Both the position numbers and the translations under genes were made by a program. The notes beneath the pieces are model-generated. The model saw only the letters and a program-made list of their open reading frames with translations. It was not told the DNA's origin and ran no database searches. This document shows, in pieces, positions 1-28,180 of a DNA stretch of 32,744 nucleotides; the first letter of the stretch is position 1, and each line of letters starts with the position of its first letter. The DNA lies in the NCBI GenBank assembly GCA_013287135.1, contig JABDEK010000044.1:1-32744 (forward strand), written 5' to 3'. This DNA is from Acidobacteriota bacterium (GTDB lineage: Bacteria; Acidobacteriota; Terriglobia; Acidiferrales; UBA7541).

Positions 1-58
1 CAATGCGGAATCCGCGTATCGGACGAGCAGATCGTTCAGGTGCGCTGGCGCGCGAGAA

Positions 59-433
59 GTTGTTCGCGCAATTCGGCCGGCGAATGGAACGAAGCGCGCT
101 TTGTTGGTCGCCGATATGCCTTACGGCAGCTTTCACGTCTCGATCGAGGAATCCATACGCAACGCCATGCGCCTGGTGAAAGAAGGCGGCGCCGAAGCGA
201 TGAAGATCGAAGGCGGCGAACGCCGTCTGGAATTAATCACGCGCCTAGTCGAAGCCGAAATTCCTGTGATGGGCCATGTCGGTCTAACGCCGCAATCGAT
301 CAACGCTCTGGGCGGTTTTCACGTCCAAGCCAATCTCTACCGACTTGATCTTTTTTTATCGCGAGCGCGCTGCCCAGGTCAAAGTATGACGCCGTCGCTT
401 CGTCCGACAATTTCGCTCAACGCAATTCCCTAA
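59..433 (+). pseudogene. panB: panB remnant (ketopantoate hydroxymethyltransferase), internally deleted
   Basis: PanB transfers a hydroxymethyl group from methylene-tetrahydrofolate to ketoisovalerate in pantothenate synthesis. The segment at about 83-330 encodes a clear PanB core, with motifs LLVADMPYGSF, GGAEAMKIEGG and GHVGLTPQSINALGGF. The family is usually about 260-280 residues. Here the frame leaves PanB similarity right after GGFHVQ, near 333, and reaches a stop at 431-433. The roughly 100 residues that should follow, including the conserved GIGAG region, are absent. The short stretch 355-432 has only vague resemblance, in shifted frames, to a PanB C-terminus. Upstream of about 60 no frame gives the expected N-terminus. 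panC follows directly, which is the classic panBC order. Either this is a decayed copy or the assembly is faulty at the window edge. Identity of the core is secure; the state of the gene is not. Confidence 0.75.
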
Positions 434-456: not shown

Positions 457-1330
457 ATGGAAATAATCCGCACCATATCGTGGATGAGCCAGGTAGCCCG
501 CGAAGCGCACGCGAAGGATCGCCTCGTCGGCCTCGTTCCAACCATGGGCGCCTTGCACCAAGGCCACTTCTCACTCATCCGCGCAGCGAAAGCGGAATGC
601 TCTCCCGTCGTAGTTTCGATTTTCGTAAACCCAAAACAGTTCGGTCCCTCCGAAGATTTCCGGAAATATCCACGCGCTTTCGAAGCGGACCGCGCTGCCC
701 TTGAAAATCTCGGAGTCGATTATCTGTTCGCGCCCACTCCTGCAGAAATGTATCCGCGAGGTTTTTCGCACCACCGTCACGGTGGAAGGCCTGAGCGAAA
801 AGTTGGAAGGCCGCTCGCGCCCCGGACATTTTCAGGGTGTCACAACGGTTGTGTTGAAACTTTTGGGGATCGTTCAGCCCAACCGTGCGTATTTTGGACG
901 CAAGGACGCCCAGCAAGCCCGCATCATTCGCCAAATGGCCGCGGACCTTAATCTCACCACGCAAATCGTCGTGCGTCCAATCCTTCGCGAGCCCGATGGG
1001 TTAGCCCTCTCGTCGCGAAATGTTTATTTGAACGCCGACGAGCGCCGCGCCGCCACCGCGTTGTACCGCTCGCTCGAAGCCGTGCGCCAGAAAATCGTCG
1101 CGGGTGAACGCAGCGCGGACCCTTTGCTGGCCGCATTGCGCCGCGTGATTGATTCGGAACCCGGTGTTGTTCTCGATTATGCGGAAATCGTGGACGCAGA
1201 AACTCTTGAGCCGGTCGTGAGTGTGCGTGGCGAGTGCCTAATATTGTTAGCCGCAAAGTTGGGGGAAACACGACTAATCGATAACGCGCTAATCGAGGAA
1301 AATAACGGAGCTTTCCGCCTGACTTTATAA
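457..1330 (+). pseudogene. panC: panC, pantothenate synthetase, interrupted by a one-base frameshift
   Basis: PanC condenses pantoate and beta-alanine with ATP to give pantothenate (cytoplasm). The first frame (457 to about 766) carries the nucleotidyl-transferase start VGLVPTMGALHQGH and FVNPKQFGPSEDF. The second frame (from about 767) carries TVEGLSEKLEGRSRPGHF, the FGRKDAQQ motif, EPDGLALSSRN, and runs to the stop at 1330. Joined, the protein would be about 290 residues, the normal PanC length, with no residue missing. The join falls in a run of five T at 762-766. Removing one T gives a continuous reading through MYPRGFRTTVTVEG, just as the family requires. A homopolymer error or a recent single-base insertion is therefore the simplest explanation. 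It follows the panB remnant by about 25 bases, so the two form a broken panBC operon as read here. Confidence 0.88.
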
Positions 1331-1346: not shown

Positions 1347-1808
1347 TTATCCCGCCTTGATCGCCGCGATCACTTCGGCCGCGTGGCCTTTCGGCGTCAC
1401 CTTATCCCAAATTTTCCGGATGATTCCGTCCGGACCGATCAAGAAGGTCATGCGCACGATTCCCAGGAATGATTTCCCCAGAAAGCTTTTCATCCGCCGC
1501 GCGCCGTACGGCTCGATCACTTTGAACTCGGTGTCCGCCAGCAGAGGAAAATTCAGCTTATGCTTCAGCTTGAATTTTGTCTGCGCTTCCACATCGTCCG
1601 CGCTGCATCCCAGAATAGACGTATCCAGCTTCTCAAATTCCTTCATTGCGTCACGAAACTCGGACGCTTCGTTAATTCAACCCGGGGTATTGGCCTTCGG
1701 ATAAAAGTAGAGGACCAAATTCCGCCCGCGAAAATCCTTGAGCGACACCGTCTTGCGGTTATCGGCTGTCACCGAAAAGTCCGGGGCCTTATCACCTTCT
1801 TTAAGCAT
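1347..1808 (-). CDS. bcp: Bcp/PrxQ-type peroxiredoxin with in-frame TGA (predicted selenocysteine 44)
   Basis: Peroxiredoxins of the Bcp/PrxQ group reduce hydrogen and alkyl peroxides in the cytoplasm, using a peroxidatic Cys in a TPGC motif. Read from ATG at 1808 the protein begins MLKEGDKAPDFSV, continues LVLYFYPKANTPG, meets TGA at 1679-1677, then continues in the same frame INEASEFRDAMKEFEKL to FLIGPDGIIRKIWDKVTP and a stop at 1347. Full length is 153 residues, normal for the family. The TGA is codon 44, exactly the peroxidatic position (E. coli Bcp Cys45). The usual resolving Cys five residues on is Ser49; the only other Cys is Cys68. An AAGGA ribosome site lies 9 bases upstream of the ATG. 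The gene follows gatB by 27 bases on the same strand. selB in this window makes selenocysteine the preferred reading. A standard caller would report only the 99-codon 3' part from Met55. The alternative is a nonsense mutation. Confidence 0.85.
1648..1667 (-). promoter_or_regulatory. Candidate bacterial SECIS hairpin downstream of the bcp TGA
   Basis: Counting from the base after the TGA, nucleotides 10-29 fold into GCGUC CGA / GUU / UCG U GACGC. This is an eight-base-pair stem with one bulged U on the 3' side and a three-base apical loop starting with G at nucleotide 18. Known bacterial SECIS elements are short coding-region hairpins just after the UGA, with a G among the first loop bases, recognised by the C-terminal domain of SelB. 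Shape and spacing fit; the bulge is on the opposite side from that of E. coli fdhF. The fold was made by eye, not by an energy calculation. Confidence 0.55.
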
Positions 1809-1835: not shown

Positions 1836-3326
1836 CTACGATTCTGCCAGCACGCGTTTCAAAACGTCGTTCACCACTTGCGGATTCGCCTGCCCGCGCG
1901 TTTCCTTCATCACTTGGCCCACGAAAAACTTGAACACGCCTTCATTCCCCGCGCGATACTTCGCCGCGTTCTCCGCATTCTTGGCCACCACCGCCCGTGC
2001 GATCTTCTCAATCGCGCCGGCATCGCTGATCTGCGACATCCCCTCGGCGGAAATAATATCAGCCGCGCGCTTCCCGCTATCGAACATCGTTGCAAACACT
2101 TTCTTTCCGGTGGCTGCGGTAATTTCAGCGCTCTCAATTTTTGCGAGTAATTCCGCCAGTGCGACCGGCGGCACCGGACAATCTTGAATCTCTTTCCCAG
2201 CTTCATTCAGCCGGCGCAATAATTCAGTCGAAATCCAATTCGCTGCCGCTTTAGCCGGCGCCCCCGCGCGTACAGCCGCCTCGAAATAGTCCGCCAGCGC
2301 CCGCGTCGCGGTCAAAACCTCGGCGTCGTACGGTGTAATCCCATACTCCCGCAAAAAGCGCGCGCGTTTTACGTCCGGAAGCTCCGGCATCTCCGCCCGA
2401 ACTTCTTCCACTAATCTTTCAGGAGCCAAAAGAGGCAGCAGGTCCGGATCTGGAAAGTAGCGATAGTCGTGCGCGAATTCCTTCGAGCGCATCTGCTCCG
2501 TGCGTCCCGCCGCCACATTCCACAAACGCGTCTCTTGCACGATTTGCCCGCCTGACTCCAGCACACCTATTTGCCGCACGATTTCATATTCCAAAGCGTG
2601 CTGCAGATAACGAAATGAATTCAGGTTCTTCGCCTCCACTTTAGTCCCGAATTTCGGAGCGCCTCGCAACCGCACGCTCACATTCGCGTCGCAGCGCAGC
2701 GAACCTTCTTCCATGTTGCAATCGCTCACTTCCGTGTACTCCAGCACCTGTTTCAGCGTCGTCAAATATGAATACGCTTGGGCGGGCGTCCGTATATCAG
2801 GCTCCGATACAATTTCTATCAGCGGCACGCCGCAGCGGTTGTAATCGATGTAGCTCCAGCGGTCGGAATCCGCGAATCCCTCATGCAAATTCTTGGCCGC
2901 GTCTTCTTCCATGTGTACGCGCGTGATTCCCACTCGCTTCACCGCGCCCTCGAGCTCAAATTCCAAAGAGCCTTTTGTAGCTAGCGGCAATTCGTACATC
3001 GAGATCTGGTAGCCCTTCGGCAAGTCCGGATAAAAATAATTCTTGCGCGCAAATACCGAGCGCTGGTGAATCTCGCAATGCAGTGCGAGCGATGCTCGAA
3101 TCGCCAAATCAAGCGCTTTTCGGTTCAACACCGGCAGCGCGCCAGGCAAACCAAGACACACCGGACAAGTATTGGAATTTGGAGCGTCGCCGAAGCGCGT
3201 CGAGCAGCCGCAAAACGCTTTCGTCAGCGTTTTGAGCTGCGCATGCACTTCCAGCCCAATCACCGCTTCATAACGTTCTTTGATTTCCGGCGCGACACGC
3301 GGCCGTTCTTCTGTTGTCCGGCTCAT
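1836..3326 (-). CDS. gatB: Aspartyl/glutamyl-tRNA(Asn/Gln) amidotransferase subunit B
   Basis: GatB is the kinase/tRNA-binding subunit of GatCAB, which converts Glu-tRNA(Gln) or Asp-tRNA(Asn) to the amidated forms in bacteria lacking the direct synthetases. The 496-residue length is slightly above the usual 470-490. The N-terminal catalytic cradle is intact: YEAVIGLEVHAQL near residue 20, zinc-type cysteines in CGCSTRFG and NTCPVCLGLPG, then KNYFYPDLPKGYQIS and RCDANVSVR. The C-terminal GatB/YqeY domain ends QVVNDVLKRVL. The ATG at 3326 has no clear Shine-Dalgarno sequence, but a perfect TATAAT box lies 12 bases upstream, so the mRNA may be nearly leaderless. bcp lies 27 bases downstream and is probably co-transcribed. 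gatA and gatC are not in the window. Confidence 0.97.
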   Translation of the reverse strand: MSRTTEERPRVAPEIKERYEAVIGLEVHAQLKTLTKAFCGCSTRFGDAPNSNTCPVCLGLPGALPVLNRKALDLAIRASLALHCEIHQRSVFARKNYFYPDLPKGYQISMYELPLATKGSLEFELEGAVKRVGITRVHMEEDAAKNLHEGFADSDRWSYIDYNRCGVPLIEIVSEPDIRTPAQAYSYLTTLKQVLEYTEVSDCNMEEGSLRCDANVSVRLRGAPKFGTKVEAKNLNSFRYLQHALEYEIVRQIGVLESGGQIVQETRLWNVAAGRTEQMRSKEFAHDYRYFPDPDLLPLLAPERLVEEVRAEMPELPDVKRARFLREYGITPYDAEVLTATRALADYFEAAVRAGAPAKAAANWISTELLRRLNEAGKEIQDCPVPPVALAELLAKIESAEITAATGKKVFATMFDSGKRAADIISAEGMSQISDAGAIEKIARAVVAKNAENAAKYRAGNEGVFKFFVGQVMKETRGQANPQVVNDVLKRVLAES

Positions 3327-11191: not shown

Positions 11192-11281
11192 GCCTGTGGC
11201 TCCGATTTGCTCTTCGCCTACGAGCCTAACCCTTTCCAGCGCCCGCATCCACGCGCATCCCACGCCATGCGCTCAATCGGG

Positions 11282-11342
11282 CAAGACCTGTCCGAGCGAA
11301 CAGGTTTGTCTTGGCTCTTCGTAGCGCCGGCATCCTGCCGGC
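11282..11342. repeat. Two adjacent palindromic elements in a gene-free stretch
   Basis: In the 333 bases between the hydratase start and the toxin gene there are two hairpins. One has ACCTGT/ACAGGT inside CAAG/CTTG arms (11282-11313). The other has GCCGGC-ATCCT-GCCGGC (11326-11342) followed by TCTTTTT, which could act as a plus-strand terminator. Further on are phrases such as TGGCTTTCAGCCC and GTCATCCCGAGCGAAGC. I judge these to be members of short dispersed intergenic repeats, but only one copy of each is in the window. The rest of 11192-11498 holds nothing else I can identify. Confidence 0.4.
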
Positions 11343-11498
11343 TCTTTTTCCCTTTCCGGCTTTGCTTGCTTTTACGTAGTAGTGGCTTTCAGCCCAGCAT
11401 CTTTGCTTGCCTCCTTTTACGCTGTCATCCCGAGCGAAGCCCCGTGCGCTTCTGCTTTTCCCTTAGTTTTCAGGGGCTTCAGGACTCAAAAATCAAAT

Positions 11499-11521
11499 CC
11501 TGTACCCACTTTGGGAACAGG
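11499..11521 (+). promoter_or_regulatory. Imperfect palindrome before the toxin start, candidate HigA operator
   Basis: CCTGTACCC (11499-11507) and GGGAACAGG (11513-11521) form an inverted repeat with one mismatch and a five-base spacer. It ends three bases before the toxin ATG and includes its Shine-Dalgarno-like GGAG. HigA-type antitoxins bind such operators to repress their own operon; binding here is inferred. Confidence 0.45.
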
Positions 11522-11524
11522 AGT

Positions 11525-11818
11525 ATGTTTACCGATGGCCTCAAAGGCGGCATGGACCAGAAGGCAGTCAAATCTGCCCTCCATGCGTGGTTCCATGAGG
11601 TGCTCCGAGCGCGCTGGAAAAGCCCTGCTGATATTTTGAAAACCTATGCCCATGCCAGCATTGTCGGGAAGGACAGAGTGGTTTTCAACATCAAAGGCAA
11701 TAACTACCGCCTGGTTGTGACCATCAGCTATCTGCATCAGATCGTATTCATCAAATGGATTGGCACGCACGCGGATGATGACCACATTGATGTGAAGACG
11801 GTGAAATATGGACATTAA
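11525..11818 (+). CDS. higB: HigB-family mRNA-interferase toxin
   Basis: A 97-residue protein. The stretch ARWKSPADILKTYAHASIVGKDRVVFNIKGNNYRLVV...IVFIKWIGTHADDDHID matches the HigB_toxin family throughout (RelE-like fold; ribosome-dependent mRNA cleavage in known members). The ATG at 11525 follows GGAG with unusually short spacing; ATG 11551 (MDQKAVKSAL) is a possible alternative and would also leave the family core intact. It overlaps the antitoxin gene by 11 bases, in toxin-first order as is standard for hig modules. The longer open frame upstream to 11207 has no family similarity and was rejected. Confidence 0.88.
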   Translation: MFTDGLKGGMDQKAVKSALHAWFHEVLRARWKSPADILKTYAHASIVGKDRVVFNIKGNNYRLVVTISYLHQIVFIKWIGTHADDDHIDVKTVKYGH

Positions 11819-12236
11819 ACCGATTCGAACCGAAGCAGATTACGACCGCGCGCTGCGCCGGGTCGAAAAGCTGTGGGATTCCCCGAAAGGCTCCGCGCAA
11901 AGCGACGAGTTGGACATCCTAGCCACGCTCATCGAGGCTTACGAACGTCAGCACTATCCCATCGATCTCCCAAGCCCCATCGAGGCAATCAAGTTTCGTT
12001 TGGAACAGCAGGGCACGGACACTCGCGTATTGATCGGAGTCATTGGCCAGCGCACACGCGTTTATGAGGTGATGCAGGGCAAGCGTCCACTTTCCCTGAA
12101 TATGATTCGCAATCTCCATCAGAAATTCGGCATTCCTGCCGAAGTCCTGATCCGCCCCGCGCGCCAAGGCCGCAGAGCCGCCCGTCATCTCCCAGGTACG
12201 AAGATCGGCCGAACGCGCATTCGAAAGTCAGCCTAA
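11808..12236 (+). CDS. higA: HigA-family antitoxin, XRE-type regulator
   Basis: A 142-residue antitoxin. The N-terminal part EADYDRALRRVEKLWDSPKGSAQSDELDILATLIEAYERQHYPI is the typical HigA/COG5499 leader, followed by PIEAIKFRLEQQG and a helix-turn-helix ending RVYEVMQGKRPLSLNMIRNLHQKFGIPAEVLI. It should neutralise the upstream toxin and repress the operon through the palindrome at 11499-11521. A basic tail (RPARQGRRAARHLPGTKIGRTRIRK) extends beyond the usual family end. The ATG lies inside the toxin gene (11-base overlap), so the pair is translationally coupled. Confidence 0.92.
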   Translation: MDIKPIRTEADYDRALRRVEKLWDSPKGSAQSDELDILATLIEAYERQHYPIDLPSPIEAIKFRLEQQGTDTRVLIGVIGQRTRVYEVMQGKRPLSLNMIRNLHQKFGIPAEVLIRPARQGRRAARHLPGTKIGRTRIRKSA

Positions 12237-26263: not shown

Positions 26264-28180
26264 ATGGAAGACGTTAAACATGTGATCGTTGGCACCGCCG
26301 GGCATATCGACCATGGCAAATCCGCTCTGGTCGAGGCTCTCACGGGAACCAATCCTGATCGCCTGGAAGAAGAAAAGCGCCGCGGCATTACGATTGACCT
26401 CGGGTTTGCCTTCCTGAATCTCGAGGGCATTCGATTCGGATTTGTTGACGTCCCCGGACACGAGAAATTCGTTCGCAATATGCTCGCCGGCGTTGGCGGT
26501 ATTGATGTAGTTCTTTTCGTCATCGCTGCGGATGAATCGATCAAGCCGCAAACCCGCGAACACTTCGATATCTGCTGCTTGCTGGGTATCTCGCGCGGCA
26601 TTATAGCAATCACGAAATCCGACAAAGTCAGCCCAGACGTACTAGATACCGTGCGTCTGGAAATAGAAGAATTTGTGCGCAATTCTTTTCTGGAAAGCGC
26701 GCCGATCGTTCCCGTTAGCGTGCGCAGTGGCGCGGGAATTGAAGATCTGAAGCAGGAGCTACGTCGATCGGCGAATGCGGACCGGTGGCGAGACGACAAA
26801 CAACATTTGCGGCTTCCCATCGATCGCGCTTTCGCGATGAAGGGATTTGGGGCCGTTGTCACCGGTACGCTCGTAGCAGGTGCTTTGAATGTCGGCGCAG
26901 AGGTACAGCTTTATCCCACGCGCAAGCGAGTCCGCGTGCGCGGCCTCCACTCCGATGGGAAACAAATCGAGCGAGCTGTTGCCGGGCAACGCACGGCGGC
27001 AAACTTGGCCAGAATCGACTCCAGCGAAATAAAACGAGGGATGGTCCTGGCAACTCCTGGGATTTTCGAACCAAGCTCGCGCGTGGACGCAGCTGTAACT
27101 CTGCTGCCCTCTGCTCACCCGTTAAAAAACCGTGCGCGCGTTCATATGCATCAGGGGACGGCAGAAGCGGTGGCCGAAGTGGTTTTCCTGGATGGCCATG
27201 CGGAACTTGCTGCGGGTCACACTTCTTTTGTTCAGATGAAACTGGATAAGCCGGTTTTAATCCTGCCGGGAGATCGCTTTATTCTGCGACAGCTTTCTCC
27301 CATGGCGACCATCGGAGGAGGCCGCGTGCTCGACGCTCGCCCTGCCAGGCGCCGTCGCAATGACCATGGCGTCAAAAGTTTCCTTGAAATTATAGAGCGT
27401 GGAAACCAAGAAGAAACTTTGGTTGCGCTTGCTGAGGCATCGCCTCGTGGACTAACGTCTCCCGAAATCGTCTCACGCACCGGGTGGATGAAAGACGATA
27501 TACACTTTTCTGCAAAGAACCTTGCGCAGTCACAACGCCTGCGAATTATTGGCGACGCAGCATCGTCGGATTTCACAATAGTCTCGGCGCCCGCATTTGC
27601 AGAATCACTGACAGTAATTCGGAAGGCCGTCGACGATTTTCACGGCGCGAATCCGCTGTTGCCGGGAATTCCGAAACAGGAACTCCACGGCCGTGCCGGA
27701 AAACCTCGCGCCGAACTTTTTGAAGCGGCGCTCGATGATTTGTTGAAATCACGAGCGATTGTGATTTCAGGAGACCTGGTTCAACGAGCCGGACGAGAGA
27801 TTGCCCTGTCGCCGGAAGAAGCGCGCGCCAAAGAACTGATCGAGGAGGAGTTTGCGACGGCCGGACTCATGGTTCCGAGCTTTGCAGTCGTTCTGGCCAA
27901 GTTGCCGGTGGAATCACGTCGCGCGCAGAAAATTTTGCAGATTCTGCTGCGCGAAAAAGTGCTGGTAAAAGTGGCGGACGACCTGGTTTTCCACCAACTC
28001 GCCGTAAAAAACTTGCGCGAAACGCTCGCCAAGTATTGCAAAGAACGCGGTGCCAGGCTTTCGATTGGCGCATTCAAAGAACTTACGGGGGTCTCTCGGA
28101 AATACGCAATACCTCTGCTCGAGTATCTTGACCGCGAACACTTGACGCGTCGGGTCGGAGACGAGCGTGTTATACTTTAA
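26264..28180 (+). CDS. selB: Selenocysteine-specific translation elongation factor SelB
   Basis: SelB brings Sec-tRNA(Sec) to the ribosome at UGA codons that are followed by a SECIS hairpin. The 638-residue length is typical. The GTPase domain has G1 GTAGHIDHGKS (residues 10-20), RGITID (about 40-45), G3 DVPGHEKFV (62-70) and G4 TKSD (117-120); EEEKRRGITIDLGFAFL is the SelB form, not EF-Tu. Beta-barrel domains II and III follow (FGAVVTGTLVAGALNVG, PVLILPGDRFILRQLSPMATIGGGRVLD). The last 250 residues are the winged-helix array, ending GAFKELTGVSRKYAIPLLEYLDREHLTRRVGDERVI, the part that binds SECIS RNA. Its presence shows the genome decodes selenocysteine and supports the reading of bcp. selA, selD and tRNA-Sec are not in the window. 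Confidence 0.97.
   Translation: MEDVKHVIVGTAGHIDHGKSALVEALTGTNPDRLEEEKRRGITIDLGFAFLNLEGIRFGFVDVPGHEKFVRNMLAGVGGIDVVLFVIAADESIKPQTREHFDICCLLGISRGIIAITKSDKVSPDVLDTVRLEIEEFVRNSFLESAPIVPVSVRSGAGIEDLKQELRRSANADRWRDDKQHLRLPIDRAFAMKGFGAVVTGTLVAGALNVGAEVQLYPTRKRVRVRGLHSDGKQIERAVAGQRTAANLARIDSSEIKRGMVLATPGIFEPSSRVDAAVTLLPSAHPLKNRARVHMHQGTAEAVAEVVFLDGHAELAAGHTSFVQMKLDKPVLILPGDRFILRQLSPMATIGGGRVLDARPARRRRNDHGVKSFLEIIERGNQEETLVALAEASPRGLTSPEIVSRTGWMKDDIHFSAKNLAQSQRLRIIGDAASSDFTIVSAPAFAESLTVIRKAVDDFHGANPLLPGIPKQELHGRAGKPRAELFEAALDDLLKSRAIVISGDLVQRAGREIALSPEEARAKELIEEEFATAGLMVPSFAVVLAKLPVESRRAQKILQILLREKVLVKVADDLVFHQLAVKNLRETLAKYCKERGARLSIGAFKELTGVSRKYAIPLLEYLDREHLTRRVGDERVIL

Follow-up and report, generated by a model that had tools for sequence, protein, structure and literature searches.

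A probable selenocysteine-containing Bcp/PrxQ peroxiredoxin in a soil acidobacterium, and the alternation of TGA and cysteine codons at its locus

Is a single in-frame TGA in an otherwise intact peroxiredoxin gene translated as selenocysteine (Sec), or does it mark a sequence error, a dead gene or a changed code? The question is raised by the window studied here, i.e. the whole stretch of 32,744 nucleotides of contig JABDEK010000044.1, in which a bcp/PrxQ frame (Table 1) runs from an ATG at 1808 to a TAA at 1349-1347 with this TGA, codon 44 of 153, as its sole interruption. An initial annotation, made from the sequence alone, had put the TGA at the codon of the peroxidatic Cys and had predicted a selenoprotein. 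Its reading of the site was borne out: the active-site motif reads T41-P-G-U44, residue 49, usually the resolving Cys, is a Ser, a Cys is present at position 68, and selB lies in the same window. We consider it very probable, judging from sequence comparison, that the gene makes a Sec peroxiredoxin of the Bcp/PrxQ type. The reading is supported by the alternation of TGA and Cys codons among relatives, by a hairpin and the conservation of its silent sites, by the presence of tRNA-Sec, selB and selD, and by dN/dS values that are even on both sides of the TGA.

Table 1. Positions in the window of the peroxiredoxin gene, its putative recoding elements and associated genes
Feature	Position	Strand	Remarks
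Sec-containing Bcp/PrxQ peroxiredoxin gene (predicted)	1347..1808	minus	153 residues including U44; family models, fold model
In-frame TGA, codon 44	1677..1679	minus	peroxidatic position, TxxU motif, very probably read as selenocysteine; homologue comparison
SECIS hairpin (predicted)	1648..1667	minus	GCGTCCGA-GTT-TCG-(T bulge)-GACGC, 8 bp; encodes A48-S49-E50-F51-R52-D53-A54
gatB	1836..3326	minus	directly upstream of bcp; neighbour kept in TGA and Cys copies
selB	26264..28180	plus	Sec-specific elongation factor; GTPase, beta-barrel and winged-helix domains

The read-through protein matched PF00578 (E 3e-36) and the NCBIfam model NF006960 for thioredoxin-dependent thiol peroxidase/Bcp (148 bits at a cut-off of 140, the model scoring Cys where the protein has Sec). 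Its fold model has a mean pLDDT of 96.9, the best solved relatives are Bcp/PrxQ proteins, and the peroxiredoxin fold is found with its active-site Thr, peroxidatic residue and Arg. Ser49 occupies the place of the resolving Cys five residues past the peroxidatic residue; such a Cys is common but not universal in Bcp/PrxQ, and many Cys-type relatives in the second locus set described below likewise lack it.

The bcp protein was matched in 57 of 61 genomes (the window's own and 60 relatives), and strongly in 79 of the 89 genomes of the bacterial family. A tblastn search gave 72 matches in 69 of 88 related loci, with Cys at codon 44 in 33 of them. All 38 internal stops were TGA at this very codon, in line with the earlier argument that a chance nonsense mutation would hardly strike there. 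Two candidates for extra internal stops, a TAA (G049) and another TGA (G052), were rejected, both being terminal stops. A second set, which holds some genomes of the first set and of family f1 again under public names, yielded 90 matches in 89 further loci; codon 44 was TGA in 33 and Cys in 57, and two of the Cys copies have a stop at residue 149 or 152, near the C-terminus of the protein. In total 103 matches were collected, and dropping four partial or second-copy rows of family f1 (85 to 81) left 81 copies in f1 and 18 outside.

Within f1 the alternation that the initial annotation had suggested looking for was found, codon 44 being TGA in 58 copies and TGC or TGT in 23. The TGA copies come from five genomes of the window's own genus (window included) and from genera g2, g3, g5, g6, g7, g8, g10, g11, g12 and g13, the Cys copies from g1, g4, g5 and g9. 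Among the matches listed, the records titled Myxococcales (L147) and Gemmatimonadetes (L158) contain TGA copies as well. The gene gatB lies directly upstream of 56 of the 58 TGA and 22 of the 23 Cys copies (78 of 81), and for the three remaining copies gatB was not in the stretch examined. Since both forms are found directly behind gatB, the exchange happened in the same locus; in genome G011 one copy of each form even stands there, in tandem.

Some further matches deserve mention. In L071 (G032:C68) a bcp TGA copy is split by a frameshift about 20 codons past the TGA, giving two overlapping matches. Further peroxiredoxin-like matches (L074-L080 and L083-L086, e.g. G011:C2:68142-68540, and L081 and L082) are 33-46% identical to the window protein; many relatives have TGA at the same catalytic position in these, and position 49 is not a Cys. 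One of these was searched for in its TGA form and was not found in the window's own bin, and among six genomes searched it occurred only in G011, the source of the query.

The distribution of the TGA bears directly on the possibility that it is a sequencing or assembly error for TGC or TGT in a Cys-type Bcp. Such an error could be suspected from the frameshifted panC and the cut panB at the same contig end, and from the fragmented state of the genome bin. The TGA, however, recurs in four further genomes of the window's genus and in ten more genera of f1, and the TGA copies have a hairpin that the Cys copies lack. At the level of the family the error reading is refuted, and for this gene we regard it as highly improbable.

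The two pan genes show the following. The panC gene (window 457-1330, plus strand) is read in two frames, matching Pfam Pantoate_ligase positions 1-100 and 95-267, and the shift, an assembly indel or a real frameshift, lies at a T run (762-766) on the same contig, about 580 bases past the 3' end of the bcp gene; the contig end is therefore not free of indels. In panB (2-433, plus strand) the Pantoate_transf match covers only positions 71-155 of 259, and the frame is without match past about 334 though panC begins at 457, so that its 3' part is missing or misassembled. Elsewhere in the window, positions 11207-12236 (plus strand) resemble a toxin-antitoxin pair of the HigB/HigA type; a Pfam search of 11808-12236 gave no match.

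Decay of the frame downstream of the TGA, which the initial annotation had named as evidence against its prediction, was not observed. Compared with five relatives, the window gene has a dN/dS of 0.06-0.24 before the TGA and 0.09-0.19 behind it (in a sixth comparison the silent sites were saturated), indicating purifying selection behind the TGA. This argues against a pseudogene created by a true nonsense mutation. Translation in two pieces, with a restart at ATG 1646, would make use of the 99-residue open reading frame that begins there, but the nearest relatives do not share Met55 (they read FRDAI and FRDAL there), and a product begun at 1646 would be without the catalytic residue; we give very little credence to either variant. 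For a changed code or a suppressor by which UGA is read as Trp, Cys or Gly, the open frame is the one point in favour. TGA, however, serves as terminal stop in 7 of the 25 other open reading frames listed as window genes (one of the seven is doubtful), which argues against a code change, and tRNA-Sec, selB, selD and a SECIS hairpin are all present, which makes such recoding extremely improbable.

The predicted SECIS hairpin, GCGUCCGA-GUU-UCG-U-GACGC in the RNA, has eight pairs and one bulge, begins 9 nt behind the TGA and has its apical loop, GUU, 17 nt behind it. In a scripted test it agreed with every constraint of the bacterial SECIS model published in PMC13188914 (Fig. 2 legend): a 3-nt loop starting G, U, an 8-bp stem, 17 nt from UGA to loop and an energy below -7.5 (-8.8 kcal/mol for the hairpin alone, -10.3 kcal/mol within 48 nt). 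The folding energy of the window's 48 nt is not outstanding by itself (z -1.27; 26 of 200 shuffles fold as well). Over the relatives, the model fitted 51 of 58 TGA versus 2 of 23 Cys copies in f1, and 22 of 33 TGA versus 3 of 66 Cys copies in the second set, failing in 7 and 11 TGA copies, respectively. The hairpin pairs are formed in 96% of the cells in f1 TGA copies and 59% in Cys copies (83% and 49% in the second set), and TGA copies of the second set show two-sided changes that keep the pairing (G-C to A-T, A-T to G-C).

The f1 TGA copies range from 50 to 99% in protein identity to the window, and bases 13-32 counted from the TGA are 98-100% one base in them, lower values being confined to the bulge (58%) and a single position of the stem (91%). 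Over this stretch the Cys copies are more variable. At codons 48-51 and 53 a single codon likewise accounts for 98-100% of the TGA copies (z 4.8 to 9.6). Of the 67 columns tested for silent-site conservation, these five are within the top eight; the others there are S69, S91 and N86, so that conserved silent sites by themselves do not set the hairpin apart. The shared hairpin, inside which residue 49 is coded, also accounts for the Ser (TCC) found at this residue in 53 of the 58 f1 TGA copies. No TGA copy in f1 has Cys49; as a general rule this was rejected, since the TGA copies L122, L147, L151, L155 and L158 outside f1 do have it, and Ser49 is therefore not forced by Sec use as such. Remnants of the hairpin were sought in the 23 f1 Cys copies: none keeps seven of the eight pairs and the two that pass the model do so with other loops, so there is no clear relic.

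With respect to the decoding machinery, the initial annotation had called for a search of the source genome for selA, selD and tRNA-Sec. A tRNA-Sec (64.6 bits, anticodon TCA) and selD were found, as was selB, and selA was not found in the bin, which is 79% complete. Elsewhere selA was above cut-off in 33 of 37 f1 genomes, the window's genome being among the four without, and its absence is most likely a gap in the incomplete bin. The gene that adjoins selA in G011 was not found in the bin either, with a query without positive control. The Sec-machinery genes found in the window's genome lie on different contigs; tRNA-Sec, selD, selA and selB form one cluster in G009:C113, G018:C233 and G022:C20 (in part in G007:C228). 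In many relatives selD has an internal TGA, and the window genome's own selD match is without one.

A clear tRNA-Sec is present in the genomes of 46 of the 58 TGA and 17 of the 23 Cys copies of f1. The genomes of the other 12 TGA copies gave no match, and selA is present in all five of these that were searched. A lax search of 20 genomes returned 47 weak matches; ARAGORN called 19 of 20 such places ordinary tRNAs (mostly Ser, Leu) and one, in G007 beside selD, a tRNA-Sec. For the 12 TGA-copy genomes, the places fetched in 11 were ordinary tRNAs and G104 was without any match; bin gaps are the easy answer. Among the g4 genomes with a Cys copy, four of five are without a clear tRNA-Sec. Genome G034 (g4, Cys copy, 97% complete) has no selA and no selB or selD above cut-off either, and as all four components are missing it fits a loss of the whole selenocysteine trait. 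Given that g4 sister genomes seemingly are without the trait, the machinery cluster may also have been acquired by transfer.

The course of Sec insertion, catalysis and resolution that we infer is as follows. SelB would bring Sec-tRNA(Sec) to UGA codon 44, guided by the hairpin behind it, and without selenium translation would stop there and leave a fragment of 43 residues. By analogy with the peroxiredoxin family, the selenolate at 44, activated by T41 and R119, would reduce peroxide to water or alcohol and become a selenenic acid. Because the local resolving position 49 is a Ser, we propose that an external thiol, for instance that of thioredoxin, would then reduce the selenenic acid; where Cys68 is present, this residue might do so instead.

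Both partners had been put forward in the initial annotation, and the relatives separate them. In genus g5, 30 TGA copies have no Cys at 49 or at 68; Cys68 is therefore not the general resolver, and resolution by an external reductant was more probably the original scheme. These g5 copies probably depend on an outside thiol, and Cys68 may help in other TGA copies. A selenoprotein with Cys68 as its resolving residue, via an intramolecular selenylsulfide U44-C68, is thus rather doubtful, although Cys68 is present in 25 of the 58 TGA and 16 of the 23 Cys copies of f1. Cys copies more often have a second thiol at 49 or 68 than TGA copies do (21 of 23 versus 25 of 58; Fisher 5e-5), an association that is weak when the tree is considered (5.1 versus 0.2 of 9 pairs, median p 0.06), so that the link of the second thiol to the Cys form is only suggestive.

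The direction of the exchange was examined on a tree of 140 columns and 99 rows (81 from f1, 18 outside), from which the hairpin-coding columns were left out. The Sec/Cys label changes at least 12 times over the 99 rows, nine changes being forced by supported branches. For f1, parsimony needs seven changes with a Sec ancestor (six from Sec to Cys, one from Cys to Sec) and nine with a Cys ancestor; with Cys to Sec at half weight the balance is 6.5 versus 6.0, favouring a Cys ancestor. In AU tests, with groups that were named after the tree was seen, a single clade was rejected for the complete set of 23 f1 Cys copies (p 8e-8) and for the 18 from genera other than g5 (p 6e-5), whereas the five g5 copies are compatible with one clade (p 0.08), which implies at least three separate Cys groups. 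Sec thus looks ancestral in f1 and replaced in place by Cys at least three times (six by parsimony). As the Cys copies have no clear SECIS relic, this direction rests on parsimony and on the shared hairpin sequence, which, G006 excepted, is nearly identical across the TGA copies of f1 and was therefore presumably gained once.

Genome G006 is a special case. Its TGA copy (L028, G006:C343:10605-11057) is nested in a Cys clade and its family hairpin has decayed; another hairpin, with loop CGUGC 26 nt behind the TGA, 9 nt further on, agrees with the SECIS model. A tRNA-Sec was not found in this genome, the lax search included, and selA is present. The TGA may have been regained, or may be a sequence error; regain of Sec is a lead only, because chance passes of the model are not rare (2 of 23 and 3 of 66 Cys copies) and because of the missing tRNA-Sec. 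A tentative extension, to which we attach modest credence, is that bcp behind gatB acts as a two-way switch, with a Sec ancestor, three to six in-place gains of Cys mostly with tRNA-Sec kept, and a regain of Sec with a new SECIS in G006. If true, this would revise the published one-way picture of bacterial peroxiredoxins, from Cys to Sec; a Sec-to-Cys change for peroxiredoxins is given neither in Table 1 of PMC1794560 nor in the available text of PMC13188914. If the Sec-to-Cys direction holds, f1 is a clear exception to that picture.

If every TGA is annotated as a stop, the enzyme would be truncated at residue 43 or given a start at 55, and the same can be expected in dozens of related genomes. 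For a single enzyme and locus, family f1 and the wider set offer a dense natural series of Sec and Cys variants, with both in tandem in G011, on which it can be tested directly when bacteria abandon selenium and whether they then require a second thiol.

As far as the available texts go, Sec-Bcp is already an established selenoprotein family: 43 Sec-Bcp peroxiredoxins with a TxxU motif (COG1225) are catalogued in PMC1088965, COG1225 (Bcp) is in the selenoprotein family list of PMC9312934, and a Sec-containing peroxiredoxin family is also treated in PMC13188914. Acidobacteria with a few selenoproteins appear in PMC1794560 (Table 2) and PMC12013277. The window gene is therefore a further member of a known family, and the in-place Sec/Cys history is the less expected part. 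Among open-access papers, no title or abstract opening was found that names Sec-Bcp in this acidobacterial group, and in the available text of PMC1088965, PMC9312934 and PMC13188914 the lineage near Candidatus Acidiferrales is not named.

The PrxU protein of Eubacterium acidaminophilum, a Sec peroxiredoxin cited in PMC13188914, had been brought in as precedent by the initial annotation. It illustrates the principle and shares Sec at the peroxidatic position with the window protein, but belongs to another peroxiredoxin subfamily (NF040737: 48.5 bits at a cut-off of 270). The Cys-type Bcp/PrxQ proteins of Xylella (PrxQ, 3ixr, the structure itself being a C47S mutant), Burkholderia (5enu) and Sulfolobus (Bcp1, 3drn) differ in having a peroxidatic Cys instead of Sec. 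With the known Sec-Bcp proteins the window gene shares the family, the TxxU site, the UGA at the peroxidatic position and a bacterial SECIS behind the UGA, whereas Ser49, the frozen hairpin and the repeated in-place Cys forms are features of family f1.
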